A DNA stretch of 64,000 nucleotides from Jiangella sp. DSM 45060 (GTDB lineage Bacteria > Actinomycetota > Actinomycetes > Jiangellales > Jiangellaceae). Positions 4,332-42,189 of this stretch are shown piece after piece; position 1 is the stretch's first letter, and each line of letters begins with the position of its first letter. A model generated the notes under the pieces. The model was not told where the DNA came from and searched no databases. It saw only the letters and a program-made list of their open reading frames with translations. Made by a program: the position numbers and the translations under genes. The stretch covers positions 4,101,501 to 4,165,500 of the forward strand of contig NZ_LT629771.1 in the NCBI RefSeq assembly GCF_900105175.1. The letters run 5' to 3'.

Positions 4332-4405
4332 GGGGCGGTAGCTCAGCCGGTTAGAGCAGGGGACTCATAATCCCTGGGTCGTGGGTTCGAGTCCCACCCG
4401 CCCTA
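4332..4405 (+). tRNA. tRNA with CAT anticodon (Met or Ile2)
   Basis: A complete cloverleaf can be drawn: acceptor GGGGCGG/CCGCCCT with a G-U at the first pair, D stem GCTC/GAGC, anticodon stem GGGGA/TCCCT with loop CTCATAA, and T arm GTGGG-TTCGAGT-CCCAC, discriminator A. CCA is not encoded. Anticodon CAT fits elongator tRNA-Met or, if C34 becomes lysidine, tRNA-Ile2; these cannot be told apart reliably by eye. Its 3' end is the likely integration site of the element that follows. Confidence 0.93.
4376..4405 (+). other. Candidate attachment site (tRNA 3' end)
   Basis: Tyrosine-recombinase ICEs commonly integrate into tRNA 3' ends and rebuild the gene. Here the integrase starts 100 bp downstream of the tRNA and reads away from it. 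No second copy of the tRNA 3' segment was seen in the rest of the window, so the other end is inferred to lie beyond 64000. Confidence 0.5.
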
Positions 4406-4505
4406 CACAGATTCGCCCAGCTCAGAGCGCACCTAATCCCTGAAGCCAGCGCAGCATGTCGCTGCGTGGTGCCTCTCGTGGTGCGAGTTGCCGTAGGATC
4501 GCCTC

Positions 4506-6164
4506 ATGACGGCTCGCTCAGCGCCTCGCCGACGCTCCCGGGGGCAGGTCGAGGTACTGCCCTCTGGCGCACTCCGGGTCAAGGTGTATGCCGGCCGCGA
4601 CCCTGTCTCCAAGCGCAGGTTCTACCTGACCGAGACGGTGCCACCTGGTCCGAAGCAGGAGCGAGAGGCCGAACAGGCACGCACAAGGCTGCTGAATCAG
4701 GTCGACGAGAAGCGGAATCCCAAGACCCGCGCCACTGTCGATCAGCTGATGGTGAAGTACCTCGACGTCCTCGATGTGGACGTGCAGACCATGCGCGGCT
4801 ACCGGTCGAAGTATCAGAACCACATAAAGCCCCTGATCGGCTCGTTGCCGCTCAACCGCCTCGACGTCGAGGTGCTCGACTCTTTCTATTCGCAACTTCG
4901 GACGTGTCGAGACCACTGTCGCGGCCGGACCTACATCCAGCACAGGACCGACCGGACACACCAATGTGACGAGCACGAAGGCAACAGATGCCCTCGCAAC
5001 AACCCAGAGGGCTGCCGGCGATGCCGCCGCATGTGCAAGCCACACGTCTGCAAAGGTCTCGGCAACTCGACGATTCGGCAGATTCATTGGATCCTGAGCG
5101 GCGCCCTCGAACGCGCCGTGGTCTGGAAGTACCTCTCGGTCAACCCCGCCGAGCAGGCCGACAAGCCAGGGCTACCCACTCCGAACCCCCAGGCCCCAAC
5201 TGTGGCCGAGTCGGCCCGGCTGATCCTCGCCGCCTGGGAAGATGATCCGGAGTGGGGCGCGCTCGTGTGGACCAAGGCGACGACCGGTAGCCGGCGCGGG
5301 GAGATGCTCGCCCTACGATTCTCCGATCGCGAGCGCCGGCCCGACACAACATCCGTTCTTAAGGTCGAGCGGTCGATCTTCATCAACGATGACGGCCTTC
5401 TCGAGGAGAAGGACACGAAAACCCACCAGCAGCGACGGATCGTTCTCGATCCTGAAACGGACGCGGTCCTCGACGAGGTCGAGGACCGTGCGCGCCGCCG
5501 AGCCGCGCTTGCCGGAACTGACTTCGATCCCAATGCGTACATGTTCTCGCCATCGCCGGACGGCAGCATTCCTCTGCATCCGGACAGCGTTTCGAAGCGG
5601 TATGCGAGGCTCGCGAGACGCCTCGGGATCGATACGACGCTGAGAAACATGCGCCACTACAACGTCACCGAGCTCATAATGGCCGACGTCAACATCCGCA
5701 CCGTTGCCGGCCGCGCCGGGCATAGCGGCGGCGGAACGACAACACTTCGGGTCTACACGGCGTGGTCATCGGAAGCCGCCCAACGCTCGGCCGGCATCCT
5801 CACACCCCGAATGCCACCCCGGCCCAGTTCGCACGAGTTCGAACACGACCCAGCGAAAGGCGCCCTACCGAGCCCAATCGACGACGATCTCCAGCCCTAT
5901 CAGCGGATTGCGGCAGACCTTCGCGGGGCCATCGACAGCGGCATCCTTGCACCAGGCGACCGCCTCCCACCGGAAACCGCTCTAGCCGCCCGCTACGGCG
6001 TCGCGGCGAGCACGGCCCACCGCGCGATCGCCGCGTTGGTTGCGGCCGGGCTCGTTAGTCCCGCGCGAGGCAAACGTCCCACGCTTGTAATCAGTCTTGC
6101 GGCCGACGCTTCAGAGGAATCTGCCAGCGTCCTGCAGTTGAGACCGCACGCTTCCACAGACTGA
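4506..6164 (+). CDS. Tyrosine recombinase (ICE integrase) fused to a GntR-type HTH domain
   Basis: A 552-residue integrase. Residues ~75-130 are the SAM-like core-binding domain; ~133-182 is an unusual Cys/His-rich insertion (CRDHC, CDEH, CRRCRRMC, HVC) that could bind zinc. The catalytic domain shows the first Arg in TTGSRRGEML (~262), a Lys region near 302, an RNMRHY box near 378, GRAGHSG, and the Tyr of LRVYTAW (~417). The first His of the usual HxxR box is Arg here. Residues ~455-530 are a GntR-like winged helix (QPYQRIAADLRGAI, PPETALAARYGVAASTAHRAI), known fused to some actinobacterial ICE integrases. It starts 100 bp from the tRNA. Confidence 0.93.
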   Translation: MTARSAPRRRSRGQVEVLPSGALRVKVYAGRDPVSKRRFYLTETVPPGPKQEREAEQARTRLLNQVDEKRNPKTRATVDQLMVKYLDVLDVDVQTMRGYRSKYQNHIKPLIGSLPLNRLDVEVLDSFYSQLRTCRDHCRGRTYIQHRTDRTHQCDEHEGNRCPRNNPEGCRRCRRMCKPHVCKGLGNSTIRQIHWILSGALERAVVWKYLSVNPAEQADKPGLPTPNPQAPTVAESARLILAAWEDDPEWGALVWTKATTGSRRGEMLALRFSDRERRPDTTSVLKVERSIFINDDGLLEEKDTKTHQQRRIVLDPETDAVLDEVEDRARRRAALAGTDFDPNAYMFSPSPDGSIPLHPDSVSKRYARLARRLGIDTTLRNMRHYNVTELIMADVNIRTVAGRAGHSGGGTTTLRVYTAWSSEAAQRSAGILTPRMPPRPSSHEFEHDPAKGALPSPIDDDLQPYQRIAADLRGAIDSGILAPGDRLPPETALAARYGVAASTAHRAIAALVAAGLVSPARGKRPTLVISLAADASEESASVLQLRPHASTD

Positions 6165-6392
6165 AGCTAAGCCTTTGCGGCGGCGGCTTAACAGCGGGTG
6201 GGCACGGCGGGTGTCCGAGCCGCTTCGGCACTTGCGTCATGCCGCCGCGAACGTGACGCCCGGTCTCCAGCTGAGCAAACAGGCGGGTTCGTCGTGTGCC
6301 TTTCGGGGCGATCTTCGCCTTCGGCCGTCACCCGCGACTCAGCGCCGAAAACTCCGTGGCCCGCATCGGCGCAGCACGGGACACTTGGGTCT

Positions 6393-7376
6393 GTGACCGA
6401 TGACCAAGTCTCCCGCCCACCGAGTGATGGAACGGTCGCGGCGAGCGGCGCCGCGCAGGCTCGGCTGCTAGAGCTCGCCGAGCTGTGCCACATCTGCCGG
6501 GTGGCATTCCATTTGACTGCCGATCGATTCCACTGGCGGCCCGCACTGGGGTCGGCGGCGGAGGTGCTGGCGGCGGCTCTGCCGAGTCCAGATCCGCTTC
6601 TGGCAACGCCGCGCATAGAGACCGGGCATCGACTGGTTGCGGGTGTCGTGCAGACGTACCTCCTCACTGCGGCTGGTCACCTTGGTGCACTGTCTGCCCT
6701 TTACCGCACCGGTGAGGTGCTGTTCACGCCGGGGATGGTGGTTCGCGGGGTCATCGAGTGCAGCGCCCGTGTCGTATGGGTGCTCGGCGACCGGGGCGAC
6801 GTGCCAGAGGAACTACTGGTCCGCGGGTACCTCGAGGAACTTCTGAGCGCTGAGGAGGCTAAGAAGGCAGCCGGCCGGCTCGGCGGGAAGTCGACCGACC
6901 GGTACAAGAAGCTGGAGAAGACCTACAAGGATCTGAAGACGGAGATCGCCGGGCGGTTCCCAGGCACAACCCTTGATGACCTCAGCCGGTGGATGCTGGG
7001 CGGGCAGACCTTGGCGAGGCCGAGCGAGGTAGTTACCTGGATGTACGGGTTGCTGGAGCGTCACGCAGGTTCGATGGTCACCAGCAAGATGTCGGAGGGC
7101 ATCTACGACTACTTGTCGAACGTGACTCACCCGACGCTGTACCCGACTCGCGATCTCCGTGAGTGGGTGCCGTCGCCGGATCATCCCGACGAGCTGGTCA
7201 CCATCCTTCACGTGGAGACCGATTTCGTCGAGCGACAGACGGTGGCTGCGGTGCTCGCGTACTACAACGCGTTGTCGTCCGTTACGTCCTACTTCGGGTG
7301 GAGCACCGACATCCATGACCAGCTCACGGAGGCGATCGATCGGGTTCTTCCGGGTGTCCTGCAGGACCCAAAGTAG
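6393..7376 (+). CDS. Hypothetical protein, cargo
   Basis: A 327-residue protein, mainly alpha-helical with a hydrophobic core around LTAAGHLGALSALY and a Lys/Glu-rich amphipathic stretch (EEAKKAAGRLGGK). No catalytic motif is recognised; the general look resembles DUF5677-like helical proteins, but that is a weak impression. The start is the GTG before TDDQVSRPPS, since the open frame upstream is Arg/Ser-rich and lacks coding character. It stands alone between integrase and other cargo and has no copy of the 20-bp ICE element. The 228 bp between it and the integrase hold no supportable gene. Confidence 0.6.
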   Translation: MTDDQVSRPPSDGTVAASGAAQARLLELAELCHICRVAFHLTADRFHWRPALGSAAEVLAAALPSPDPLLATPRIETGHRLVAGVVQTYLLTAAGHLGALSALYRTGEVLFTPGMVVRGVIECSARVVWVLGDRGDVPEELLVRGYLEELLSAEEAKKAAGRLGGKSTDRYKKLEKTYKDLKTEIAGRFPGTTLDDLSRWMLGGQTLARPSEVVTWMYGLLERHAGSMVTSKMSEGIYDYLSNVTHPTLYPTRDLREWVPSPDHPDELVTILHVETDFVERQTVAAVLAYYNALSSVTSYFGWSTDIHDQLTEAIDRVLPGVLQDPK

Positions 7377-7748
7377 CGCCGGCCGGCCCTCGGGGGCGGC
7401 TCTGTGGCGTGGCTCGCGGCAGCGCGCGGAGTTGGGATGCTCCCCATCGGGGTGGCATCCGGTCAGATCCTCGCCGCCTGTCGTCGACGCCGACGCCGAC
7501 CCGAACTCAAGAGTTGATCTTCGTACACAGGCCATCTAATTCCGCCCATTCCGCCGCCAACGCCCGTAGCTAACGTCGATCAAGCCCATGACGCCCGCGG
7601 AGGCGTTGCAACCCGCCATCATGGTCGCGCCGCTGGAGAGCGAGCGGTTGAGCTCCGCAGCCGCCAAGGCTCGCGGCCCTCTTCGCCGACTGGGAGGACA
7701 ACTACCAGCACCTGGCACCTTGTTCGCGCTGAGCCTGCGGACTCGATG
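7377..7748. other. Gene-poor stretch with possible coding relics
   Basis: No complete gene is supported. On the minus strand 7536-7660 reads as a short stretch with good third-position GC (SLSSGATMMAGCNASAGVMG), and on the plus strand near 7680 there is a short sensible run (FADWEDNYQHLAP). Both are broken off and look like remnants. Confidence 0.35.
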
Positions 7749-8222
7749 TCAGCCTTCGATCGCAAGCTTCGCCGACCTCCGAGCGCGTCGGCGGCGGAGC
7801 TGGTGCCACGGCGGGTCCAGGTAGTCCAGCACTGCGGCCTCGAGCGCCTTCAGCCGATCGGTCAGCGCGCGGTCCGGGACGACGTGGCCGACCTCTTCGT
7901 CGATGTACTCGGTCGCTTGCCAGATGCTCTCCATGGTGGTGCGGAGCGACGCAACCATGAACTGCGGCACGCCGGCAGACCGCAGCGTGGCGCAGAGCCG
8001 ACCCAGCTCGGCGTCAGCCTCCGGCCAACCGGACTCCACGTTCGTCGGCATCCACATGATGCGGCGCAGGCCGGCCATCTCTGTGGCGGCCTGGCGTCGC
8101 AGCTCACCCCGCTTATCCACCTTGCTCGACGCGAGGCCGAGGGCGAAGGTCGCGACGGGCAACAGCTGGTCGAGCAGCTCGGAATCCACGACGGGCAGCG
8201 TAAGGTTCCGCATCGCAGACAC
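7749..8222 (-). CDS. Hypothetical helical protein
   Basis: A 157-residue reading frame on the minus strand with balanced amino-acid use (LPVVDSELLDQLLPVATF at the N-terminus, an Arg-rich C-terminus with RRRRARRSAKL). The overlapping plus-strand frame is Arg/Gly-rich and was judged the shadow. It may start at GTG 8222 or at the ATG three codons later. It contains the kind of helix-rich sequence seen in small regulatory or abortive-infection proteins, but no known domain is recognised. It is followed by a 200-bp gap before the convergent DUF3800 gene region; no ICE 20-bp element precedes it. Confidence 0.5.
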   Translation of the reverse strand: MSAMRNLTLPVVDSELLDQLLPVATFALGLASSKVDKRGELRRQAATEMAGLRRIMWMPTNVESGWPEADAELGRLCATLRSAGVPQFMVASLRTTMESIWQATEYIDEEVGHVVPDRALTDRLKALEAAVLDYLDPPWHQLRRRRARRSAKLAIEG

Positions 8223-8423
8223 ACACTCAACACACGCTGCACGCGTTGCGATCGGGCGGGAAACATAACGTCATCGAACGGTGGGACCTAACGATTACAC
8301 CAAAAGTGCGACATCGCTCTAGACGTAGGAATCTTCGCTGCTACTGTAAAAAATACGCGGACAGTCGTCTGCTGGTGGAAACATCAGCACCCGCATCGGC
8401 GGCTGTAGCCGGCTGACGCGTGA

Positions 8424-9161
8424 TCAGAGGGCCGCCACCCACGGGTAGGCGGCCTTCGTCATGTCGTTGTACGGGTGCAACTTGAGGCCGTACGACGTGA
8501 GCGGCGCAGAGCCCCGGCGATACAGCAGCGGTGCGAGTTCCTGGAGGTAGCGCTGCTCAGTGTTCCCGAACCGGTCCTTCTCGAACGCCAGGGCCGTTGC
8601 AGATGCGACGCTGTCCGCGAGCTGCAGGTACTCGTTCCGACTCGGCTGATCGAGCGAACCGCCCGCCGGGTCGAGCGCCGGCCAGGCGATCTTGCAGGCC
8701 CCGTCGGGTTGACGGCGCAGCCGCTCCTCGTAATCGCGCAGCTTGGCGAGCTTGAAGCGCCGGATGTGAGCGAGGGTGTACTTCAGCTCGGCACCCTGGT
8801 CGCGAGCCAGCCACGACAGGCGCTCGAGGAGGAAGCGGAACGTGTACAGGTACGCCTGGTCGTCGTTCAACTGGGTCGACGCCGTCAGTGCGCGCTTGCA
8901 GACCACCACGTTGGAGACGGTCATCCAGTCCTGCGCTCCGATGGACTTCGCGACATGCAGGCGCTCGGGGTGGTGCTTAACGTTCCTCCAGTGCATGGTC
9001 TGGCCCGGCGCACGGCCGAGCTCCGACCGCAGAGACGCCAGGAAGGCCCTCGCGCGCGGCAAGTCACTCTCGTCAATGACGACGGCGGACATCACGAAGT
9101 GATCGCTCGACTTCGGACTGCTCGAACGCTGCCCGGACTCGTCGATATACGCGTGTATCAC
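8424..9161 (-). CDS. DUF3800 domain protein
   Basis: The 245-residue protein begins with the DUF3800 signature AYIDESGQ and has later conserved acidic and His positions (TMHWRNVKHH near residue 60). DUF3800 proteins are of unknown biochemical function, have an RNase H-like look, and are frequent cargo of mobile elements and defence neighbourhoods. The frame is open 128 codons further upstream, but that part has no family similarity; the GTG just before IHAYIDESG was chosen (another GTG lies eight codons earlier). No clear Shine-Dalgarno is visible. It is flanked by gene-poor DNA on both sides, consistent with independent acquisition. Confidence 0.7.
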   Translation of the reverse strand: MIHAYIDESGQRSSSPKSSDHFVMSAVVIDESDLPRARAFLASLRSELGRAPGQTMHWRNVKHHPERLHVAKSIGAQDWMTVSNVVVCKRALTASTQLNDDQAYLYTFRFLLERLSWLARDQGAELKYTLAHIRRFKLAKLRDYEERLRRQPDGACKIAWPALDPAGGSLDQPSRNEYLQLADSVASATALAFEKDRFGNTEQRYLQELAPLLYRRGSAPLTSYGLKLHPYNDMTKAAYPWVAAL

Positions 9162-9582
9162 GGGCCGCGTCGACTGGACCACGAGGGGTAGGATACGCCC
9201 GCCGATCACCAACGTCCCAATCGTCACGGGGAAGATCAATATCGGCCTAGACCACCCGAAACGCTCCCTAGCAGGGCCCGTGCCGATGGGTGCGACGCGA
9301 ACCGAGTTAGTGTCCGATAATCGGTACCGTCCGTGTCGCGTCAAGGCAGGGATCTTTGGTGGGCGCCATCGGGTCTGGCGGTCATGTCCCATCAGCCGGC
9401 GCGCGTACGTCGACAAGATCCTGGACCAACTTTCCCCGCGGTCGCTGCCGTCGCTGTCGATGCCCGGCCCGCGTCCTGCCACCCCCCGAACAGCGGTGGG
9501 CCAGTGGCGCATAGCGCTGCGCAACGCGGCCGCCCCGGGTGCCAACTACGCGCTCGTACTCCGGGACGACGGCTTTCGGCCA

Positions 9583-9693
9583 TCGACATCCCGGCTGAAC
9601 CTGGTCGAGATCTTCCTCGGGATCATCACCCGCCAAGCCATCCGACGCGGCACCTTCGCATTCGTCGAGGACCTCATCAGGACGACCGAGACT
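9583..9693 (+). pseudogene. IS630-family transposase C-terminal remnant
   Basis: The translation RLNLVEIFLGIITRQAIRRG and the following TFAFVEDLI match the conserved C-terminal block of IS630-type transposases (typically ..SWLNLVEIFFGIITRQ..RRGTF..), which carries part of the DDE catalytic core. Flanking codons do not continue the family in either direction, and no terminal inverted repeats were found. It is a short relic. The surrounding 9162-9702 stretch holds nothing else supportable. Confidence 0.7.
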
Positions 9694-9702
9694 TGCTGCC
9701 AG

Positions 9703-9924
9703 TCAGTTCATCAGCGCAACGCTCAGGACCGCGATCAGCGCCAGCACGAAGAGGATTCCCGTCGCGCGCAGCCACCTCGTGCCTAGATGGCACAGGCCGA
9801 GGCCACGGGATCGGCGGGCCGTCAGGGCGACGAAGAAGAATGCCACGACGCCGGCGCAGCCGAATGCGACGATGCCCATGCCGAGGGCACCGCCAACCGC
9901 TTCAGGATCGCTCAGCGCGTACAC
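9703..9924 (-). CDS. Small two-span membrane protein
   Basis: A 73-residue protein with two clear hydrophobic segments (GIVAFGCAGVVAFFFVAL and GILFVLALIAVLSVAL) separated by a basic loop, so probably a hairpin membrane protein with the loop in the cytoplasm. Its ATG lies inside the 3' end of the DUF2637 gene (23-bp overlap), suggesting translational coupling. Size and position resemble the small Spd-type spread proteins of actinobacterial plasmids, but no family can be assigned. Confidence 0.65.
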   Translation of the reverse strand: MYALSDPEAVGGALGMGIVAFGCAGVVAFFFVALTARRSRGLGLCHLGTRWLRATGILFVLALIAVLSVALMN

Positions 9925-10882
9925 CTTCGTCCGTCTTTACGTGGTCAGGTCGTTGCTCCTGCGCATCCTCGTCCAACTGCATGGCGCGGAGGGCGGCGAG
10001 TCGCCGCCGCCCGGTGGCTGGCGAGACGTTCAGGAATCGAGCGACGTCGTTGCCGGTCACACTACGGCCAGCGGCCCGCTCGGCGGCGAGCCACGCGCCG
10101 AGTTCCGGTTCGACGGCGGCCCGTCTCGGCGTCCCGGTTCGCGCTCGTCCGTGTGCTTCGGAGGTCACCTGGACGGGCGCGCTTGCCATTGCACGATCGG
10201 CCGCAGCCACTGCGCGGCTCACTCTGCCCCGCGCAGTGGTGTTGGAGCTCGGTGCTGCTCTCCTTGCTGAGTCCGAGCCATCCGACCAGCTTGCGGGCGG
10301 CGGGGGCGGTGAAAGCAGAACCACGAGAAGGTGGCTGGCGAGCAGCAAGGCCACCGCCGGCACCGCGCTCACGATGCTGGCCACCGTGACGCTGACCGCT
10401 GCTCGATTCGCATGGCCGCTGGCGTGCAGCGCGTTGCCCGCCACGCTGATCGCAGCGAAGACGATCAACGTGGCCCAGGGGTACCAGGTGACGCGCGGGC
10501 CGCGGTCGCGCAGGGCCACCGCCGCCGCTGTCGCGAGGAGGATGAAGCCGTCGACGATCAACGGCCACAGCCAGGCGATCGAGCGGTTGAGGCCGGCGAC
10601 CGTGGCGAGCTCGCGCAATGCGTCGAAGCTGAGCGTGAACGCACCGATGGCGAGCGCCACTACCGTTGCGGCGATCATCGCGATCAGCCGTCTCGATGGC
10701 GCAGTTGCGCCGAATCCGCGCACGCGTGCGCGTTGCGCTCGCTCACGCGTCCGGTACTCCCCCACGGTGGGCTCGGAGCCACTGCGCGGCACGCGACCGC
10801 TCGGGTGAGCGACAAGTCGATCGCTCGCCGCATCGTTTGCGTGCGCGGCGACCGTCCCTGCGTTCAGCGTCTCGATGCTCAT
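9902..10882 (-). CDS. DUF2637 membrane protein with C-terminal DNA-binding-like region
   Basis: A 326-residue protein. Residues ~70-190 are the DUF2637 region with four hydrophobic spans (including AMIAATVVALAIGAFTLSF and WLWPLIVDGFILLATAAAV), a family common on actinobacterial plasmids and ICEs and related to the SpdB-type spread proteins. The C-terminal third (GNDVARFLNVSPATGRRRLAALR) looks like a helix-turn-helix, so the protein may tether DNA to the membrane. The start is the ATG of MSIETLNAG, preceded by GGAGTGGAG. The 20-bp ICE element sits 57 nt upstream and is even in frame. Confidence 0.8.
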   Translation of the reverse strand: MSIETLNAGTVAAHANDAASDRLVAHPSGRVPRSGSEPTVGEYRTRERAQRARVRGFGATAPSRRLIAMIAATVVALAIGAFTLSFDALRELATVAGLNRSIAWLWPLIVDGFILLATAAAVALRDRGPRVTWYPWATLIVFAAISVAGNALHASGHANRAAVSVTVASIVSAVPAVALLLASHLLVVLLSPPPPPASWSDGSDSARRAAPSSNTTARGRVSRAVAAADRAMASAPVQVTSEAHGRARTGTPRRAAVEPELGAWLAAERAAGRSVTGNDVARFLNVSPATGRRRLAALRAMQLDEDAQEQRPDHVKTDEGVRAERS

Positions 10883-10938
10883 ACACCGCTCCACTCCGGA
10901 TTCATGCCAGCGCTCACCTGAGCGCCGCTCACCTATTG

Positions 10939-10958
10939 GGTGGCCCCTGCCGCGCACA
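10939..10958 (-). promoter_or_regulatory. ICE 20-bp upstream element, copy 1
   Basis: Reads TGTGCGCGGCAGGGGCCACC toward the DUF2637 gene. It is divergent from copy 2 and lies on the other side of the 40-bp repeat array. Confidence 0.75.
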
Positions 10959-11040
10959 ATCTGCGAGGGAGTCTCGGTCTTGACCGTGCGTGCGCACGTG
11001 ACGAAGGTCCGGAGGCCGACGATGGCCTAACGGCACGGCT

Positions 11041-11385
11041 CAGCGAGCCCGTGACGGCCGCGACGCCCGTGCCGAAGACTCAGCGAGCCCGTGACGGCCG
11101 CGACGCCCGTGCCGAAGACTCAGCGAGCCCGTGACGGCCGCGACGCCCGTGCCGAAGACTCAGCGAGCCCGTGACGGCCGCGACGCCCGTGCCGAAGACT
11201 CAGCGAGCCCGTGACGGCCGCGACGCCCGTGCCGAAGACTCAGCGAGCCCGTGACGGCCGCGACGCCCGTGCCGAAGACTCAGCGAGCCCGTGACGGCCG
11301 CGACGCCCGTGCCGAAGACTCAGCGAGCCCGTGACGGCCGCGACGCCCGTGCCGAAGACTCAGCGAGCCCGTGACGGCCGCGACG
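11041..11385. repeat. Tandem array of 8.6 identical 40-bp repeats
   Basis: Eight full units plus 25 bp, beginning CAGCGAGCCCGTGACGGCCG and ending CGACGCCCGTGCCGAAGACT, follow each other without spacers or mismatches. The array fills the gap between the divergent DUF2637 and relaxase operons, where an origin of transfer, replication iterons or a partition site would be expected. Each unit holds two CCCGTGxCG half-repeats. Flanking short dyads are GTGCG-TG-CGCAC near 10987 and GCAC-GAAA-GTGC near 11387. It is not a CRISPR array, because there are no spacers. Confidence 0.9.
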
Positions 11386-11448
11386 AGCACGAAAGTGCCT
11401 TACACCTCTGGCATCGAGTCGTCTAAGCCGTTTGCGCCCAAGTGTGAC

Positions 11449-11468
11449 TGTGCGCGGCAGGGGCCACC
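11449..11468 (+). promoter_or_regulatory. ICE 20-bp upstream element, copy 2
   Basis: Exact TGTGCGCGGCAGGGGCCACC, ending two bases before the ATG of the zinc-finger gene, the closest spacing of all copies. It is the only plus-strand copy and heads the relaxase operon. Confidence 0.75.
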
Positions 11469-11470
11469 CA

Positions 11471-11905
11471 ATGAGTATGAGGGAGATCCGGCGAGGCCAG
11501 AAGCGGTGCTGGAACTGTGGCGAGGGATTTGAGCCGGAGCGCCTCACACAACGGTGGTGCAGTGATGACTGCCGCTTCGCAGCGGCGCGTAGACGGTCCC
11601 GGGAACGCAGGAAGGAGCAGCGGGCCGAGGCACAGGTGGCCGACCGGTGGTGTGCGTCCTGCCCGAAGCTGTTGGCCGGGAAGCGATCCGATGCGCGCTA
11701 CTGCTCGGATCGCTGCCGCTGGCGGGCGTTCAAGGCCGCTCGGGCTGAGCGCGCGGGAGAGCGTGAGGTCGCTGGTGTTGAGCGGCTGGTGGTCTGCGCG
11801 ATGTGCCCGACTGTGTTCCCTGCGCGGCGATCTGATGCGCGGCATTGTTCTGATCGGTGCCGAAAGCGCGCGCAGCGTGCCCGGGCTGTTGGTGAGCGCG
11901 TGTGA
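11471..11905 (+). CDS. Triple zinc-finger-like protein upstream of relaxase
   Basis: A 144-residue basic protein with three repeats of a CxxC...CSDxC pattern: CWNCGEGFEPERLTQRWCSD, CASCPKLLAGKRSDARYCSD and CAMCPTVFPARRSDARHCSD, each followed by Arg-rich helices. This suggests three small treble-clef/zinc-ribbon units binding nucleic acid. The ATG follows the 20-bp ICE element at once, and the stop overlaps the relaxase start by GTGA, so the two are probably translated together. A role as an accessory relaxosome protein at the origin of transfer is inferred from this coupling; no homologue is known to me. Confidence 0.75.
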   Translation: MSMREIRRGQKRCWNCGEGFEPERLTQRWCSDDCRFAAARRRSRERRKEQRAEAQVADRWCASCPKLLAGKRSDARYCSDRCRWRAFKAARAERAGEREVAGVERLVVCAMCPTVFPARRSDARHCSDRCRKRAQRARAVGERV

Positions 11906-14900
11906 TCTCGATCAAGGAGCTGCACGCTGGCGATGGCTACCGGTATCTGCTCAGGGGAGTCGTGGCCGACAGTGATCAGATGCCGGGTGTCGCGGCGGTG
12001 ACGGCGTACTACACCGAGGCCGGTAACCCTCCCGGTCACTGGGTGGGATCCGGGCTGGTTGGCCTCGACCGTGGTCATGGCCTGGCAGTGGGCACGCAGG
12101 TGACTGAGGAGCAGATGGAGCGCCTGTACCGCTCGGGCGCGGACCCGGTCACCGGTGACCAGCTGGGTCAGGCGTACCGGGTGCCGAAGTCTTTCGACGA
12201 CCGTGTCGCTGCCCGCGTGGCGGCGTTGCCCGCGGCGATGCCGGCGTCTGAGCGGAACCGGATGGTTGAGCAGATCGAGGCGGAGGAGCGGTCGCGCCGG
12301 GTTGGTCGTCCTGTGTCGGGTTTCGATGTGACGTTCTCGCCGCCGAAGTCGGTCAGCGTCATGTGGGCATTGGCCGATCATGGCGTGCGGGAGCAGATCT
12401 ATGAGGCCCACCGGGAGGCTGTGGCCGACGTGATCGCCACGATCGAGCGGGAGGTTGCCCGGACCCGGATCGGGACCAACGGTGTGGCGCAGGTGGAGAC
12501 CGCCGGGGTGATCGCGGCAGCATTCGATCACTGGGACTCCCGCGCCGGCGATCCGCAGCTGCACACCCATGTGGTGATAGCGAACAGGGTGCAGGGTCCG
12601 GACGGGAAATGGCGGACGCTGGACTCGCGTGGGTCGCTGTTCCCGGCCACGGTGGCGATGTCCGAGCTGTACGACAATCTGCTCGCCGACCACGTCACGG
12701 CCAGGCTCGGGGTCGGCTGGCGGGTGCGGGGTCAACCTGCGAAGTCGAAGAACACCGCGTGGGAGCTCGACGCGGTGTCGGATGACTTGGTCGCGGCGTT
12801 CTCCACCCGGTCGTCGGAGATCGAACGCGAGGCCGATCGGCTGATCGCCGACTACCGCAAGCGGCACGGCCGATCCCCCACCGACAAGGTCAAACTGCGG
12901 TTGCGGCAGATCGCGACGTTGGCGACCCGGCCGGCGAAGGAGATACGCACCCTGAGCGAGATGGCACACGACTGGCGCGACCGGGCGGCCGCGGTCGTTG
13001 GTCAGGATGCGCTCACCTGGATGCGGGCGGCGATCGAGAGTGCGACCGCACCGTCACGGCGCCCTCCGCTGCTGCGGGTCGACGACTTGGCCGTGTCGCC
13101 GCAGGCATCGCGCCGCAGCCGCCGGCCCAGTGAGCCGCCGGAGCTGGAGAAGCTCGCTCACGCTGCGTTCGTCGAGTTGGCGACCGAACGGACGACGTGG
13201 AAGACGTGGAACATCCGGGCTGCTGCGGCGCGGGCGGCGATGCGACACCGGATGGTGACCCCGGACGAGCGGGAGAAGCTGATCGCCGCCGTGAGCGCGC
13301 GGGTGGCGGAGATGTCGGTTGAGCTGACCCCATCGGTGACGGCCTTCACTCCGGCGGTGTTCACCCGCTCCGATGGGACGTCGATGTTCGTCCGCACGCA
13401 CGCCGGCCTGTTCACCTCAGCGGAGGTCCTCGCTGCTGAAGAGCGACTGCTGAGCGCCGGGCGGTCTACGAACGCCGCGACGGTCAGCAGCGCGACCGTG
13501 GAGCGGGTCCTGGCGGCACCGACGGCGGACGGGTACTTCCTGGCCGACGACCAGGCCGACGCCGTGCGCGACATCACGGCCAGCGGCCGCCGCCTCGACA
13601 TCCTGGTCGGCCCCGCGGGTGCCGGGAAGACCACCACCCTGACCGCCCTGCGTGCGGCGTGGGAGCTCGACCATGGGGAGGGGTCGCTGGTCGGGTTGGC
13701 ACCGTCGGCAGCCGCGGCGGACGTCCTGGCCGAGTCGCTGGGCATCGCGACGGACAACACCGCGAAGTGGCTGCACGAGGCGGCCCGGCTACCCGACACC
13801 CGCAAGGAGATCGCCCACCTCACGGAGGTCCTGCAGCTCATCAACGCTGACGACCCGGCCTGGCGGAAGCACCTGGCCCGCTCCACCGAGGTGACTGACC
13901 GGGCCGCTGACTGGGCGGCGTTCATCGGGGCCGACAAGCCCCAGACCTGGTCCGTGGCACGGGGCCGAGGCGCCATGAAGAAGAGGCTGGAAAAGCTCCG
14001 CGCTGAGGAGCAGCGGTGGACCTTCCGGCCGGGGCAGCTGGTGGTGATCGATGAGGCGTCTCTGGCCGGAACCCTAGCCGTCGACGACCTCGTGACCCGC
14101 GCCACCCACGCGGGGGCCAAGGTCCTCATGGTCGGCGACTGGGCCCAGCTGGCGTCGGTGGACGCCGGCGGCGTTTTCGGCATGCTGGTCCGCGATCGCG
14201 GCGAAGGCCTCGCCCCAGAGTTGACCGGGGTGCGCCGGTTCACGCACGAGTGGGAACGAACAGCCAGCGTGCACCTGCGCCTGGGTGACACGTCGGCGCT
14301 GGACTCCTACGACGCCCACGGCCGCCTGGTCGGGGGCACCGGCGAGGACATGCTCGACGCCGCCTACCGGGCGTGGCGAGGTGACGAGCAGGCCGGACTC
14401 CAATCGCTGCTCATCGCCGGTGACAACACGACCGTGACCGACCTCAACCGCCGGGCGCGCGCCGACCGGGTCGCGGCCGGTGAGATCGACGAGGACGGCG
14501 TCAGCCTTCGCGACGGCACCGTCGCCGGCGTCGGGGACCGCATCATCACCCGGGATAACCAGCGCCGCCTGGTCGCAGGCAAGGGCTGGGTGAAGAACGG
14601 CGACACCTGGCACGTAAAGGCCGTCCACGGAGACGGCTCACTGACCGTGCGGCGAGCGAAGGGCCGCGGCACGATCACGCTGCCGGCCAGATATGTGGCC
14701 GACAACGTCGAACTGGCGTACGCGGTCACCGCGCACCGCGCCCAGGGCGCAACCGTGGACACCGCGCACGCCCTGGTGACCGGGGCGACCATGATGCGCG
14801 AGATCCTCTACGTCGCCATGACCCGCGCCCGCTCGGCCAACACCGCCTACGTGGTGACCGACGTCGACGAGGAAGAACGGCACCTGCGCGACGCCGATGA

Positions 14901-15735
14901 TCCCGCCCCGACCGCCCGGTCAGTGCTCACCACGGTGCTGCGCCGCCAGGGCGCGGCGCTCTCGGCACGGGAGACCGCACGCGCCGAGGCCGAGAAGGCG
15001 CTGTCGATCGGGCAGCTCGCGGCCGAGTACGACACGCTGCATCGGGCCGCCGTCGCCGACCGGCAGGCCGCGCTGCTGCTGTCGTGCGGAGTGCAGCCTG
15101 CCGAGGCCGCCGACTCTGAGCACCTGGTCGCGCTCGCCGCCGCTGTGCACCGCGCCGACGCCCACGGGCTGAAACCGGACACGGTGCTGCCCAAGCTGGC
15201 GGCCGCCCAGCCGATTCCGGACGACGCGGACCCGGTGCGTGTACTGGCCGCCCGGGTCGCGCGGTGGACCGACCACGCCATGGAGGCCGCGCCCAGCGTC
15301 GTGCGGCGGCAACGTCGGCTGATCGCCGGCCTGGTCCCCGCGGCCGACGGCGTCACCGACCCGCAGATGCAGCGGGCGCTGACCGAGCGGGAGACGCTGC
15401 TCGAGGAGCGGGCCGCGACGATCGCCAGGCGGGCGATCAGCGAGCGCGCGCCGTGGCTGCGGTCTCTCGGGGCGGAACCGGTCAACGACGCGGAGCAGGC
15501 GCGCTGGCGCCGGTGCGTCGAGATCGTCGCCGCCTACCGCGAACGTCACGACATCACCGATACCGCATCCCCTGTGGGCGACCCCGGCTACAACTGGACA
15601 CAGCGACACGACTACCGGCAAGCGGCCAGCGCTGTCCAGGCGGCCCAGCAGGCGGCCGGGGTGCTCAGCGAATCGACCGCGCAGCAGCAGGCCGCGCAGC
15701 AGTCGCCCCAGCAGCACACCGGTCGGGACCTCTGA
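11902..15735 (+). CDS. MobF-family conjugative relaxase/helicase (TrwC/TraI-like)
   Basis: A 1277-residue two-part protein. The N-terminal ~300 residues are a TrwC relaxase: paired tyrosines at 36-37 are candidate nucleophiles, and the HUH metal motif is in LHTHVVIANRV (~220). The C-terminal part is a RecD-like superfamily-1 helicase with Walker A VGPAGAGKTTT (~570), a DEAS box (VVIDEASLAG) and motif VI-like YAVTAHRAQGATVD. Such enzymes nick oriT, stay bound to the 5' end and unwind the strand for transfer through the VirD4-like coupling protein. The C-terminus is Gln-rich. The GTG start overlaps the zinc-finger gene. Confidence 0.95.
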   Translation: MISIKELHAGDGYRYLLRGVVADSDQMPGVAAVTAYYTEAGNPPGHWVGSGLVGLDRGHGLAVGTQVTEEQMERLYRSGADPVTGDQLGQAYRVPKSFDDRVAARVAALPAAMPASERNRMVEQIEAEERSRRVGRPVSGFDVTFSPPKSVSVMWALADHGVREQIYEAHREAVADVIATIEREVARTRIGTNGVAQVETAGVIAAAFDHWDSRAGDPQLHTHVVIANRVQGPDGKWRTLDSRGSLFPATVAMSELYDNLLADHVTARLGVGWRVRGQPAKSKNTAWELDAVSDDLVAAFSTRSSEIEREADRLIADYRKRHGRSPTDKVKLRLRQIATLATRPAKEIRTLSEMAHDWRDRAAAVVGQDALTWMRAAIESATAPSRRPPLLRVDDLAVSPQASRRSRRPSEPPELEKLAHAAFVELATERTTWKTWNIRAAAARAAMRHRMVTPDEREKLIAAVSARVAEMSVELTPSVTAFTPAVFTRSDGTSMFVRTHAGLFTSAEVLAAEERLLSAGRSTNAATVSSATVERVLAAPTADGYFLADDQADAVRDITASGRRLDILVGPAGAGKTTTLTALRAAWELDHGEGSLVGLAPSAAAADVLAESLGIATDNTAKWLHEAARLPDTRKEIAHLTEVLQLINADDPAWRKHLARSTEVTDRAADWAAFIGADKPQTWSVARGRGAMKKRLEKLRAEEQRWTFRPGQLVVIDEASLAGTLAVDDLVTRATHAGAKVLMVGDWAQLASVDAGGVFGMLVRDRGEGLAPELTGVRRFTHEWERTASVHLRLGDTSALDSYDAHGRLVGGTGEDMLDAAYRAWRGDEQAGLQSLLIAGDNTTVTDLNRRARADRVAAGEIDEDGVSLRDGTVAGVGDRIITRDNQRRLVAGKGWVKNGDTWHVKAVHGDGSLTVRRAKGRGTITLPARYVADNVELAYAVTAHRAQGATVDTAHALVTGATMMREILYVAMTRARSANTAYVVTDVDEEERHLRDADDPAPTARSVLTTVLRRQGAALSARETARAEAEKALSIGQLAAEYDTLHRAAVADRQAALLLSCGVQPAEAADSEHLVALAAAVHRADAHGLKPDTVLPKLAAAQPIPDDADPVRVLAARVARWTDHAMEAAPSVVRRQRRLIAGLVPAADGVTDPQMQRALTERETLLEERAATIARRAISERAPWLRSLGAEPVNDAEQARWRRCVEIVAAYRERHDITDTASPVGDPGYNWTQRHDYRQAASAVQAAQQAAGVLSESTAQQQAAQQSPQQHTGRDL

Positions 15736-17819: not shown

Positions 17820-17839
17820 GGTGGCCCCTGCCGCGCACA
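17820..17839 (-). promoter_or_regulatory. ICE 20-bp upstream element, copy 3 (ssb)
   Basis: Exact copy of TGTGCGCGGCAGGGGCCACC, 39 nt before the ssb start codon, in the intergenic gap after the preceding gene. Confidence 0.75.
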
Positions 17840-18633: not shown

Positions 18634-18653
18634 GGTGGCCCCTGCCGCGCACA
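18634..18653 (-). promoter_or_regulatory. ICE 20-bp upstream element, copy 4
   Basis: Exact copy, 38 nt before the ATG of the helical protein and only 6 bp after the methyltransferase stop codon. Confidence 0.75.
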
Positions 18654-20684: not shown

Positions 20685-20704
20685 GGTGGCCCCTGCCGCG
20701 CACA
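20685..20704 (-). promoter_or_regulatory. ICE 20-bp upstream element, copy 5
   Basis: Exact copy, 60 nt before the methyltransferase ATG and 7 bp after the stop of the methylase/helicase gene. Confidence 0.75.
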
Positions 20705-20711
20705 AGACGGA

Positions 20712-23700
20712 TCAGAGACCCAGGTCCGGCCCGGGCTGTCCGAGTTGCTTCCTGGGTGGCTGTTGCGCGCCTGGCCTGCGACTGGGCGGCAGGGCCGGGG
20801 GCGGCTGGGTTTCCGCCGCCGCCTCCCCTGCGGCCTGGTCGGTCATGGCTGCGACGATCCGGTCGAGTGCTTCGCGAGCCTCGTGCAGCGCTGCGGCGTG
20901 TTTGAACGGCGCTTCGAGCGCGGTTTCGGCGTCCTGCTGCTCGTTGACGGCGTCGACGCGCATCCGGTCGGTCTCGGCCAGGTCCGCCGGGATCGCCGCG
21001 ACCCGGTTCTCCAGCACGCGCACGGTGCCAATGCCGTGGCCATCGGTGATCGTGGCAACCGTCACCGACGCGTCGCTGAGCGGCACGCCGCGCAGCCGCA
21101 GCTCGACCCGAGCGGGCTGCCCGAGGACGCTGCCCGGTGGCAGGTAGGTGGCTTCGATGGTGTGCCCGGCGATCTCGCCGAGGACACCGAGGTCGGCCTG
21201 CCGATACGGGTTGCCCGGCAGGTGTTGGGTGGCCCACCGGGCGATAGCTGCTGCGGCGTCGGTGCGTTTGGTGACCCGGGTCCCGTCGACGGTCATGGCG
21301 AAGGCGTCGCCGGCCACGGGGATGGTGCGGGCGATGGCGGCCTCGAGGATCGGCCGCTGCTGGTCGAGGTCGCGGATCCGGGCGGCGGCGAAGTTGCGGC
21401 GCTGGCGAAGGTTGTCCTGCTGGCGGTGGTGGGCACGGCGCAGGCGATCAAGGCGGGTGAGTTCGGCGTGGGCGTTGGCGCGCTCCAGGATGAGCGGGTC
21501 TCCGGCGGCGAGGGCTTTGACCTCGGCGAAAGACAGGGCGTTGTCGCCGACGTCATCGATGGCGCGGACGTCGAGGCGGCCGCGCATGATCTGGGCGATG
21601 AACTTCGCTTTGCGTTCGACGGTCTGCCAGAGGTAGCCGTCGAAGCTGCCCTCGGTGACGTATCGGTAGATCTGGATCTCGGCGTTCTGATTGCCCTGGC
21701 GTTTGATCCGCCCGTCGCGCTGGGCCAGGTCGGCCGGCCGCCAGGGGCAGTCGACGTGGTGCAGCGCGACCGCCCTGGCCTGGACGTTGGTTCCAACGCC
21801 CATCTTCGCCGTCGACCCGAGTAGCACTGCGATGTGCCCAGCCCGGGCGGCGGCGAACAGTCGGGCTTTCTCGGTGTCGTTGCGGGCCTCGTGCATGAAC
21901 CTGACCTGCTCGCGCGGCAGTCCGCGGCGACCGAGCAGGTCCCGCAGCTCGTCGTAGACGTTCCAGTTCTCCTGCGGGGTGCCGAGGTCGCAGAACACGA
22001 TCTGCAGCGCGCCCGGCGCCGGCGAGTACTCCTCGGTGCCCGGAGTCAGGTACCGGGCGTCGCGGTGATGGGCCCAGATCCTGGCGACGTTGTCGGCGAC
22101 AACGTCGAGCTTCGTCGCGTCAGCGAGTGGTCGGTGGCCGGAGACCAGACGCATGTCCAGGGCAGCCTTGCGGCCGTCGGTGCTGATCTTCAGCATGTTG
22201 TCCGTGCTGCTGTCGACCTGGCGGTTCTTCACACGTTCCGCCCGCTCGCCGAGATCAGCCACATAGGCGGTGAGTTCGTCCGACGGCGGCACCACGGTCG
22301 TGACCGGTGCTCGTTCCCCGTCTTCGCGGACGGCGAGGTCCGGGGTGGGGAGGTTGAGGTCCTCGGCGGTCTTGACGTCGGCGAAGACGTGCCACATGCG
22401 CAGCATCTCGGGGACGTTCTGGAACTTCGCGAACCGGGTCTGCAGCCGGTAGCCGCCGGCCGGGGCCATCTCGATCTCGGTGACGGTCTGCCCGAAGGTG
22501 GCCGCCCACGAGTCGAAGTCACCCACGCCGGCCTCGTCGAGCAGGTCCGGGCGCAGGAAGCGCTGCATCACGTGCGCTTCGGTGACGGAGTTGGCGATCG
22601 GTGTGGCGGTGGCCGCCGTGATGACGCGGTCCCCGTGCTGGTCGCGCAGGTACTCGGTCTTCATGTGCAGGTCGCTGGCGCGGCGGCTGCCGACGATCGC
22701 GGCGTCGCGGATGTTGGAGACCGTGCGCAGGTTCTTGTAGTCGTGCATCTCGTCGACGACCAGGTAGTCGATGCCGGTCTGCTCGAAACTGATGCCCGGG
22801 TCGCGGGGCCCGTCCAGGCGTTCCTTCAGCCGCTCCTCAGCGGCCAGCACGGCCCTCTCCAGCCGTTTCACGCTCAGCCCGTGGGACTCGCGGGAGTTGG
22901 CCAGCATCGCTCGCAGCGCGTCCATCTCGCGCTCCTGATACGCAGCCTCGACATCGGGAGACACCGGGATGCGTTCGAACGCCCCACGGGTCATGATGAC
23001 CGCGTCCCAGTCGTTGGTGGCGCAGCGTGCGACGAACAACCTGCGCTGATCGCCGCGAAGGTCATCGCTCGACGCGGCCAGGATGCGGGCCGTCGGGTAG
23101 AGCTGCAACCACTCACGGCTGAACTGCTCGAGCATGTGGTTGGGCACGATCACGCAGGGCTTGCGGACCATGCCCAGGCGCCGCAACTCCATCGAACCCA
23201 TCACCATCTCCGCGGTCTTCCCGGCGCCGACCTCGTGGAACAGCCCGACCGCGGGTTCGGCGAGCATCCGCGCCACCGCGGTGCGCTGGTGCTCACGCGG
23301 AGTGAACGTCGCGGCCAGTCCCGGCAGGGTCAGCCGCTGCCCCTCGGAGGCGTAGTCGCGCAACACGATGGTGTTGAACCGGTCGTTGTACTCGCGCTGC
23401 AGCCGGGCCGCCCGCTCCGGGTCCTCCCACACCCACTCGGCGAACCGTTCCTGAAGCAGCCTGGCCTTCTCCTGCGCGGCCGCGGTCTCGACTGGGTTGA
23501 TCACCCGCCCGCCGTCCTCGATCTCGTCGGTGACCTGGATCGGGCGCTGTTCCAGCGTCGCCTTCGCGATCGCCGTCGCCGGCATCCGCTCGGTGCCCCA
23601 CTCCTCGCTGGCCGCGACCGACCACTTGTTCCCGCGCACCTCCCAGATGGCGCCGCCGGGGTGCTCGACCTGGACCGACGGATCGTTCAGCAGCTCGGAC

Positions 23701-25706
23701 AGGAACCGCTCATGCGTGGCGGCGTCGATCCACGCCGCACCCAGCCGGGCCTCGATGTCGCCCGGCCCGAGGTCACCGGGCTGGACCTGACGCAGCGCGG
23801 CCACGTTCACCGCGTACCGCTCCGGGTCGGCCTCGACGGCCGTGACGGCGGCGTCGAGTTTCTGCCGGACGTTGCCAGACAGGTACTCCGCAGCGGTGAG
23901 CAGCTGCTTCGTCTGCGGGTCGTCGTACACGAGTTCGCCCAGCATGGCGCGGGCTTCGTCCTCGCCGACCCCGAGCAGTTGTGCCACCTGCATCAGGTCG
24001 ACGCGGCCGTGCGCGTCCAGCACGACGGCCAGCGCCTCCTGCGGAGTGTCCGCTCCCAGGACGGGCACGCGGGGCGCGACGACTCGTTGTGTCATGATCG
24101 TGGCCGGGGTGGCGGTCTGGGAGGCGTCGTCGAACACCTCCAGCCCCTTCACCAGCGCGGCGAACGGGTCGGTGCGGAAGATCCGCATCACCGGCGGCGC
24201 GACCCGCGACGGCCGGGGCTCCCCGGTCGCGGGGTCGACGCGGCCGGTGGTCCGGGTGGTGAACCGGTTGATCGGCCCGTACCGGTCCACGTAGCGGTGG
24301 TACTGGTCGGCCAGGTCCGCTCGCAGGGCGGCGATCTCCGGGGTGTCGTCGAGGTCGGCGGCCTCGGCCGTCAGCAGCGCTCGGGCGACGTCGCGCAGCC
24401 CCAGCAGGGCCCGCAGTTCCCGCCGCTGGGTGGTCGGGACCGGGCGGTCCTCGAGCATGCCGTCGGTCACGACGCTGAACGTGTTGTCTTCGTTCGCGAC
24501 CAGGTGCCCGTCCCACAGACCGTCCGGGGCCAGCGCCGCCGGCCGGGCCTCACCCTGCATCGCCGGCCTGCGGGCCGTCATCTGCAGGCTGTCGGTGCGG
24601 GCCGCCTCGGCGACGCCGGCGAGCGCCCCGGCGAGGCGTGCTGGCGTCTGGGCGAGATCGGCGCGCACGTGCAGGGTCTGCGCCCCGTACATGCCGAGGC
24701 CGACACCGAGATCCCCGAGGATCCGCTCCGGGTGGTGATCGAAGTAGGAGTTCACCCGGACGATCTCGCCGTCGACCTTGCGGGCGGTGACGGTCTCCCA
24801 CAGCGTCGACCTCGGCGGGGTGTCGCGGTCGCGGCGGCGGAACACCAGCAGGTCCGTCACCACCTCCGTGCCCGCGGCGCGGCGGTGCGCACCGGACGGC
24901 ATCCGGACCGCGCCGACCAGGTCAGCTAGGGCGTTCATCTCCCGCCGCGCGGCCGGGTTCTGCGCGTCCAGAGTGAAATGGCTCGTCAGCACAGCCACCA
25001 GCCCGCCCGGTCGGGTGAGGCCGAGGGACTTGATGATGAAGTGGTTGTGCAAAGCGTGGCCGCCGGCGTTGTGCTTCGGGTCGTGCAGGCGGACATCACC
25101 GAACGGGACGTTCCCGATGACGGCGTCGAAGTGCCCGTCCGGAAAGCGGGTGTCGGCGAACGACTCCGCCCGAACCTGCGCGCCCGGATACAGCGCGGCC
25201 GCGATCGCGGCGCTGGTCGGGTCCAGTTCCACCCCGGTCACACGCGCTGCGGTGGGCGCAAGGCCGATGAAGGTCCCGGACCCGCAGCCCGGCTCCAGCA
25301 CCTCCCCGCCGGCGAGCCCGAGGCCGGCCAGCAGGTCCCACATCGGTTGCACGTAGGCCGGATCGGTGTAGTGCGCGTTGATCGTCGTGCGGCGCGCCGC
25401 CGCGTACGCCGAGTCGCCGAGCACCGACCGCAGGTACTCGCGCTCGCGCTGCCACTCGGACGCCTGCTCGTCGAACACCTGGGGCACCGCACCCCAGCTC
25501 GACCAGCGCGCCAGCACGCGGCGCTCCTCGTCGCTGGCCTGCCGCGCCTCCCGCTGCAGCAGCTGCACCAACGCGATCGCGTCGAGGTTCGCCCGCACCC
25601 GCGCCCGTGCACCCGACGGCGCGAGATCGTCCTGCCGCAGCGGCCGGAACGCCGCTACGTGGTCGGCTGGTCGTCGTCCTCGTTCGCCGCCCGATGGATC
25701 GCCCAC
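20712..25706 (-). CDS. DarB-like N6-adenine methylase fused to DEAD/SNF2-type helicase
   Basis: A giant protein (~1664 residues from the GTG used here). The N-terminal part is a class-I methyltransferase: EPGCGSGTFIG (~140-150) and catalytic IGNVPFGD (~195-202, NVPF in place of NPPY). The C-terminal part is a superfamily-2 helicase with Walker A EVGAGKTAEM (~825), VVDEMHDYK (~985), and motif VI QRDGRIKRQG (~1335). Phage P1 DarB has this architecture and protects incoming DNA from type I restriction; the same job during conjugation is inferred. Tail: QLGQPGPDLGL. The frame stays open to 26081, but 25706-26005 is coded in another frame by the TnpV-like gene. Confidence 0.85.
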   Translation of the reverse strand: MGDPSGGERGRRPADHVAAFRPLRQDDLAPSGARARVRANLDAIALVQLLQREARQASDEERRVLARWSSWGAVPQVFDEQASEWQREREYLRSVLGDSAYAAARRTTINAHYTDPAYVQPMWDLLAGLGLAGGEVLEPGCGSGTFIGLAPTAARVTGVELDPTSAAIAAALYPGAQVRAESFADTRFPDGHFDAVIGNVPFGDVRLHDPKHNAGGHALHNHFIIKSLGLTRPGGLVAVLTSHFTLDAQNPAARREMNALADLVGAVRMPSGAHRRAAGTEVVTDLLVFRRRDRDTPPRSTLWETVTARKVDGEIVRVNSYFDHHPERILGDLGVGLGMYGAQTLHVRADLAQTPARLAGALAGVAEAARTDSLQMTARRPAMQGEARPAALAPDGLWDGHLVANEDNTFSVVTDGMLEDRPVPTTQRRELRALLGLRDVARALLTAEAADLDDTPEIAALRADLADQYHRYVDRYGPINRFTTRTTGRVDPATGEPRPSRVAPPVMRIFRTDPFAALVKGLEVFDDASQTATPATIMTQRVVAPRVPVLGADTPQEALAVVLDAHGRVDLMQVAQLLGVGEDEARAMLGELVYDDPQTKQLLTAAEYLSGNVRQKLDAAVTAVEADPERYAVNVAALRQVQPGDLGPGDIEARLGAAWIDAATHERFLSELLNDPSVQVEHPGGAIWEVRGNKWSVAASEEWGTERMPATAIAKATLEQRPIQVTDEIEDGGRVINPVETAAAQEKARLLQERFAEWVWEDPERAARLQREYNDRFNTIVLRDYASEGQRLTLPGLAATFTPREHQRTAVARMLAEPAVGLFHEVGAGKTAEMVMGSMELRRLGMVRKPCVIVPNHMLEQFSREWLQLYPTARILAASSDDLRGDQRRLFVARCATNDWDAVIMTRGAFERIPVSPDVEAAYQEREMDALRAMLANSRESHGLSVKRLERAVLAAEERLKERLDGPRDPGISFEQTGIDYLVVDEMHDYKNLRTVSNIRDAAIVGSRRASDLHMKTEYLRDQHGDRVITAATATPIANSVTEAHVMQRFLRPDLLDEAGVGDFDSWAATFGQTVTEIEMAPAGGYRLQTRFAKFQNVPEMLRMWHVFADVKTAEDLNLPTPDLAVREDGERAPVTTVVPPSDELTAYVADLGERAERVKNRQVDSSTDNMLKISTDGRKAALDMRLVSGHRPLADATKLDVVADNVARIWAHHRDARYLTPGTEEYSPAPGALQIVFCDLGTPQENWNVYDELRDLLGRRGLPREQVRFMHEARNDTEKARLFAAARAGHIAVLLGSTAKMGVGTNVQARAVALHHVDCPWRPADLAQRDGRIKRQGNQNAEIQIYRYVTEGSFDGYLWQTVERKAKFIAQIMRGRLDVRAIDDVGDNALSFAEVKALAAGDPLILERANAHAELTRLDRLRRAHHRQQDNLRQRRNFAAARIRDLDQQRPILEAAIARTIPVAGDAFAMTVDGTRVTKRTDAAAAIARWATQHLPGNPYRQADLGVLGEIAGHTIEATYLPPGSVLGQPARVELRLRGVPLSDASVTVATITDGHGIGTVRVLENRVAAIPADLAETDRMRVDAVNEQQDAETALEAPFKHAAALHEAREALDRIVAAMTDQAAGEAAAETQPPPALPPSRRPGAQQPPRKQLGQPGPDLGL

Positions 25707-26005: not shown

Positions 26006-26009
26006 CGCG

Positions 26010-26081
26010 CTCACTCTCCGAATCTGCCCACAACGATTCCAGACTCATCTGCCCGTCGATCTGCTTCTTGCGGCGAGCCAT
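26010..26081 (-). other. Short conserved-looking reading frame opening the methylase operon
   Basis: An ATG with GAGGG upstream, 43 nt after the 20-bp element (the normal spacing for this element), starts MARRKKQIDGQMSLESLW. QMSL resembles a sliding-clamp binding motif. The frame then runs, without a stop, beneath the TnpV-like gene and into the methylase frame. It may be a short leader peptide, the true N-terminus of the methylase, or a former separate gene. Confidence 0.4.
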
Positions 26082-26123: not shown

Positions 26124-26143
26124 GGTGGCCCCTGCCGCGCACA
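26124..26143 (-). promoter_or_regulatory. ICE 20-bp upstream element, copy 6
   Basis: Exact copy, 3 bp after the stop of the upstream HTH gene and leading the TnpV/methylase/helicase operon. Confidence 0.75.
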
Positions 26144-29452: not shown

Positions 29453-29508
29453 ATGTTCGATGATCGGTTCTGTGGTGAGGCATGCGTGCCCGCGAAGGGT
29501 GGTTCATC

Positions 29509-42171: not shown

Positions 42172-42189
42172 CATGCCTCCCAACCCAAT

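Follow-up and report, generated by a model that had tools for sequence, protein, structure and literature searches.

A perfect 40-bp tandem array beside a nic-like motif in an actinobacterial T4SS-type ICE

Introduction

The closest described counterparts of the locus reported here come from R388 and F. The nic site of R388 is given as GGTGCGTATTGTCT/ATAG, and the hairpin IR2 ends at the TGC side of nic (excerpts of PMC4176350 and PMC4814116); the nic site of F is given as TGCGTGGGGTGT/GG, with the cut after 27 bases of the printed oligonucleotide (excerpt of PMC5422253). Some HUH-relaxase plasmids are described as having no inverted repeat (excerpt of PMC4176350). The MOB operon and stbABC of R388 diverge from the oriT region, and StbA, which binds direct repeats (stbDRs) at the stb promoter, stabilises R388 and restrains its transfer (excerpt of PMC3098194). 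Five direct repeats bound by TraX are also described at the oriT of pAD1, in excerpts of a review that calls MOBF relaxases rare in Gram-positive bacteria (PMC12857230). Our searches of open-licence papers yielded no actinobacterial MOBF element with a mapped nic site, and the excerpts of PMC3218068, PMC7478629, PMC9513070, PMC12915292, and PMC6305408 available to us contain none.

Here we analyze a stretch of 64,000 nucleotides from Jiangella sp. DSM 45060 (hereafter, the window), in which a perfect array of 40-bp repeats lies close to the gene of a MOBF relaxase. We propose, at a probability of roughly 0.42, that this array offers a protein multiple binding sites on the leading side of an ICE oriT.

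Results

The array sits in a 62.7-kb T4SS-type ICE at tRNA-Met. The 43-bp repeat of the tRNA-Met 3' end at 4364-4406 recurs at 67076, and the array therefore lies within this element, which combines an integrase, att repeats, a relaxase, a coupling protein, and a VirB4-like ATPase as T4SS-type ICEs do. The relaxase joins a TrwC relaxase domain to a helicase, the combination that marks the MOBF family. The main genes of the element, in window numbering, are as follows.

4364-4406, plus strand: attL, the 43-bp repeat at the tRNA-Met 3' end, with its second copy beyond the window at 67076-67118
4506-6164, plus strand: tyrosine integrase with a C-terminal GntR helix-turn-helix (protein domain match)
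11902-15735, plus strand: MOBF (TrwC-type) relaxase-helicase, 1277 aa (PF08751, E 3e-90; NCBIfam MobF, 6.1e-76; TraI and TrwC structures)
49056-50885, minus strand: VirD4/TraG-type coupling protein
50882-53838, minus strand: VirB4-like ATPase and SCO6880-family protein
56310-57803, minus strand: TrbL/VirB6-like membrane protein

The nearest named relatives belong to the genera Jiangella and Haloactinopolyspora, and an IMG/VR search with the relaxase as query found nothing. The GntR DNA-binding domain of the integrase covers residues 464-523 (E 9.9e-15). The ICE also encodes a DNA polymerase III alpha subunit of its own (29482-32796), a protein of 1789 aa that matches methyltransferases and, weakly, SNF2/helicases (20712-26081) and adjoins a C5-methylase gene, and a second, short tyrosine recombinase of 207 aa (41560-42183, E 1.4e-33). 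Outside the ICE, a 282-bp tandem repeat (6.7 copies at 80%) lies within a 745-aa ORF at 1-1889.

The immediate surroundings of the array comprise the following features, where L009 denotes the corresponding locus of Jiangella rhizosphaerae.

9902-10882, minus strand: DUF2637 gene (PF10935, E 1.9e-12), likely start ATG at 10882 by conservation with L009
10935-11038, no strand: left flank of the array; 100 of its bases align with L009 (stretch 10929-11038), and 87 of them are identical
10936-10955, minus strand: left copy of a 20-bp element, exact, upstream of DUF2637
11039-11385, no strand: tandem array, 40-bp unit, 8.7 copies, with an internal 19-mer present nine times
11401-11413, minus strand: candidate nic core, TGCCAGAGGTGT/A on the minus strand, with a putative cut between 11402 and 11401
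11452-11471, plus strand: right copy of the 20-bp element, exact, upstream of the zinc-finger gene
11471-11905, plus strand: 144-aa protein with three treble-clef zinc fingers, encoded by the first gene of the relaxase operon

Tandem Repeats Finder, applied to the window, returned a period of 40 with 100% matches and no indels, and the internal 19-mer GCGAGCCCGTGACGGCCGC occurs in nine exact copies, one per 40 bp, from 11043 to 11381. The earlier note, made from the same sequence, had reported 8.6 identical copies at 11041-11385, which agrees to 2 bp. A search of the 7,485,957-base genome with the 40-mer at up to 3 mismatches gave 8 matches, every one of them in the array, and a reversed control gave none; the array is therefore far beyond chance. 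The unit has a G+C content of 75%. The fold of the array as single-stranded DNA was no better than that of shuffles (120 nt tested; z = +1.43), no intrinsic terminators or sigma-70 promoters were found around it, and an Rfam search of the array region found no families. We rejected the array core as a regulon site, because the ICE holds no other exact copy and the one at 1361-1379 lies outside it; copies with a single mismatch are scattered over the 22 family genomes.

The divergent 20-bp elements that the earlier note had placed on either side of the array are both exact. They extend to an inverted repeat around the array, with 27-nt arms that are 96% complementary and 484 nt apart. The same note had set the array between divergent relaxase and DUF2637 operons; DUF2637 does lie on the left, but the right neighbor is the zinc-finger gene rather than the relaxase gene, so that the array stands between DUF2637 and a zinc-finger/relaxase operon. 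A ribosome-binding site as explanation of the 20-bp element was rejected on account of a variable G run in L009. Its 17-bp form, GCGCGGCAGGGGCCACC, resembles an operator or promoter element that serves the ICE as a whole. At up to 1 mismatch this form has 10 copies in the genome, all within the ICE (10939-10955, 11452-11468, 17820-17836, 18634-18650, 20685-20701, 26124-26140, 34982-34998, 35213-35229, 54262-54278, and 58545-58561), and L009 holds five variant copies whose center varies.

Fifteen base pairs to the right of the array, the minus strand carries a motif, TGCMAGASGTGT/R, that recurs upstream of actinobacterial MOBF relaxases, and a short block on the same side of the array, GCCTTACACCTCTGGCAT, is common to the window, L009, L010, and L011. 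A shorter motif, YACACSTCTKGCA, was scored in 59 regions of at most 1500 bp upstream of MOBF relaxases whose N-terminal domains share 40 to 100% identity with the query. This set leaves out 10 places (9 without the N-terminus, and G126:C41) as well as L048, dropped for lack of the N-terminus, and counts each of L035 and L049, which are two pieces of one locus. At up to 1 mismatch the motif occurred in 29 of the 59 regions in the forward direction and in 0/59 as the reverse complement, against 1/59 and 0/59 for the reversed motif. Thirty-two regions had partly served to draw the motif (21/32 with a match); among the 27 held-out regions, 8 had a match at up to 1 mismatch and 0/27 did for each of three controls, and at 2 mismatches the count was 21/27 versus 3, 3, and 3 for the controls. 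In plasmid loci the motif was present in 2/8 at up to 1 mismatch and in 4/8 at up to 2. A longer form was found in 7 of 296 genomes scanned (control, 0); four of the seven sites lie at a relaxase, and in the 3-kb loci of the other three no match to a relaxase, a zinc-finger protein, or DUF2637 was seen. The +1 position is a purine in 42 of 52 sites, in part because of how the motif was built; no conservation is seen from +2 to +8, which lie outside the search motif (5 regions without the core and 1 at an edge were left out of this count, and duplicates were merged to 52).

At the place of the R388 IR2, a stem of at least 4 bp was found in 18 of 44 distinct sites (shuffled flanks: mean 4.4, maximum 10) and in 14 of 22 held-out sites (mean 2.0, maximum 6). 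Stems on the plus strand were found in 9/41 (mean 2.9, maximum 9) and, for held-out sites, in 6/22 (mean 1.5, maximum 5), the held-out and plus-strand test covering 41 rather than 44 sites as flanks on both sides were needed. We first considered a plus-strand nick after TCT, given the GCAC-GAAA-GTGC that stands before the motif in the window, and set it aside since the minus strand fits the spacing of R388 and F and has the stronger stem enrichment. The minus strand is favored rather than proved, as plus-strand stems are also somewhat enriched. The site in the window has no stem of at least 3 bp at the IR2 place, and L029 to L031 likewise have no IR2-type stem.

On these grounds of motif and geometry, we read the motif as the nic site, in which case the array would be at the front of the transferred strand. 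The window presents a TGC-N9-/purine core on one strand near the relaxase, and because some HUH-relaxase plasmids do without the inverted repeat, we regard it as a site that works like the nic of R388 and F rather than as a proven member of that class. The proposal in the earlier note that the array is an origin of transfer thus holds for the place, given a strand-specific nic-like motif 15 bp away, but the widely shared part is the motif and not the array, which is confined to this element and its closest relative, apart from a degenerate form in a third.

Counting the repeats in related strains, as the earlier note had suggested, gave 8.7 copies in the window, 2.8 in L009, and three degenerate units in L011 (Haloactinopolyspora alba). 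The L009 array has the same 40-bp unit (97% matches), the same edges, and the same register. The flanks are 87.0% and 82.1% identical between the window and L009 and the unit 77.5%, with 9 of 40 unit positions differing in step between the two arrays. Nine fixed differences between the arrays and none within that of the window point to homogenisation or repeated turnover since the split, in line with the recent amplification or homogenisation inferred before. The L011 units lie at the same place, spaced 58 and 59, with a best self-match of 21.5, where 60 shuffles reached at most 14.0; because they were picked by eye and the pattern was made from both, their relation to the 40-bp unit is no more than suggestive. 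In L008 (J. aurantiaca, 5570-9779), zinc-finger and relaxase matches are kept and the array, the motif/block, and DUF2637 are absent; the relaxase matches fall in three successive frames, so this locus may be a decayed element or may contain sequencing errors.

A neutral satellite is a serious rival to the binding-site reading because conservation of the unit does not exceed that of its flanks (31/40 versus 156/184 positions identical; Fisher p = 0.25), and its inner block shows no significant excess of conservation over the rest (20/23 versus 11/17; p = 0.13). By this account, a spacer near oriT was tandemly duplicated and kept uniform via slippage, unequal recombination, or rolling-circle replication, with no binding function. 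Tandem arrays with a period of at least 30 and more than 2.5 copies are confined, among the 59 regions, to the window and the genome of L009, most relatives carrying the motif without an array; the full unit has no extra copies elsewhere, and the copy number varies from 8.7 to 2.8. Retention is nevertheless suggested by the period and edges shared by two elements whose flanks are 13 to 18% different, and by the third kind of repeats at the same place in L011, and we consider a purely neutral origin possible though somewhat unlikely.

Two neighboring genes encode candidate DNA-binding proteins. The structure model of the DUF2637 protein has predicted helices at residues 61-190 and a C-terminal helix-turn-helix; its mean pLDDT is 53.5, rising to about 85 to 89 at residues 261-300, and the model is poor outside the helix-turn-helix. 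A fold search with it returned generic helical matches only, and no StbA family was found among the Pfam and NCBIfam hits of this protein. DUF2637 is directly adjacent in four loci, three of which have repeats (L028, L029, and L030), L043 having none. The zinc-finger protein might bind the array, as the earlier note had proposed, and DUF2637, with its helix-turn-helix, is an equally placed candidate.

The zinc-finger gene, ending at 11905, overlaps the relaxase start at 11902. Its protein, through translational coupling to the relaxase, might serve as a relaxosome accessory factor that occupies the array and assists in the opening of nic by the relaxase. This overlap, the zinc-finger matches between motif and relaxase in L029-L032 and L043, and the paired Cys residues invariant in 5 aligned sequences (alignment without L012) are consistent with such a role. 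Zinc-finger matches occur, however, at the array-less loci L031, L032, and L043, so that the site of this protein need not be the array, and we regard the array as an unlikely relaxosome accessory site. Tandem identical units are generally typical of iteron-type replication origins and ParABS-type centromeres, but either role in the excised circle is very improbable, because no replication initiator, ParA, or ParB was found among 41 ICE-region proteins scanned (part of the ORFs) and the unit is so rich in G+C. The iterons invoked by the earlier note are thus not borne out, and what survives of its centromere-like site is a possible StbA-like stability site without ParA.

Discussion

The binding-site reading draws its support from where the array lies, flanked by two divergent genes and 15 bp away from the motif, and from the period of 40 and both array edges kept in L009. 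It is weakened by a unit no more conserved than its flanks, by the lack of repeats in L043 despite its adjacent DUF2637 and of an array in most relatives, and by a DUF2637 protein that has no StbA relation detectable in its Pfam and NCBIfam hits and models poorly outside the helix-turn-helix. After excision, the MOBF relaxase would nick the minus strand between 11402 and 11401, as motif and geometry suggest. The cut strand would exit leftward, and the recipient would receive the array first, DUF2637 next, and the relaxase gene at the end. The nine identical sites would be covered by a DNA-binding protein of the ICE, most likely that of DUF2637, whose gene adjoins the array, and otherwise the zinc-finger protein. 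By analogy with StbA and the stbDRs of R388, the bound protein may control the divergent promoter from which it is itself expressed and secure or position the oriT region, so that upkeep of the excised circle and transfer are kept in balance. We propose this StbA-like role because the order of relaxase operon, candidate nic, direct repeats, and divergent gene is that of R388 and because DUF2637 has a C-terminal helix-turn-helix. A bolder version, which we hold to be quite unlikely, is that a membrane-tethered helix-turn-helix DUF2637 protein binds an expandable 40-bp array at the leading oriT edge and so anchors the excised ICE to the membrane or keeps it there. This would be an Stb-like switch for transfer and stability made from a single unrelated protein, with a common actinobacterial MOBF nic code adjoining.

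The motif may be a more useful result than the array. If it is nic, the oriT would become predictable for many actinobacterial elements, and the array, which may couple maintenance to transfer, would become open to testing.

Compared with the nic sites of R388 and F, as they appear in the excerpts of their sources, the window site is alike in the TGC, the nine bases, the cut, and the purine, with GTNT before the cut; it differs in its middle bases and in having no adjacent IR2 hairpin. The likeness to the R388 stbDRs, on the same kind of evidence, is one of layout. In both, the oriT region separates a MOBF relaxase operon from a second, divergent operon, and direct repeats are found at the promoter of the latter, which would be the first to enter the recipient; the leading side is deduced here from the candidate nic. 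The repeats themselves differ, R388 having two sets of five 9-bp repeats, 2 bp apart, and the window one set of 40-bp units placed head to tail, outside the 9-bp, 2-bp-spaced pattern of stbDRs. No StbA or StbB relative came up here, and DUF2637, with no StbA family among its Pfam and NCBIfam hits, joins predicted membrane helices with a helix-turn-helix. The pAD1 oriT, so far as its excerpted description goes, shares a direct-repeat array near nic, but its relaxase family is unrelated and its host belongs to another phylum. In Streptomyces, clt/TRS are 8-bp repeats bound by TraB in an FtsK-like, double-stranded transfer; both these and the present repeats lie in actinobacterial transfer loci, the latter in a T4SS-type element. 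Direct repeats at oriT are known in kind, and the array is a new variant of them in an actinobacterial T4SS-type ICE.
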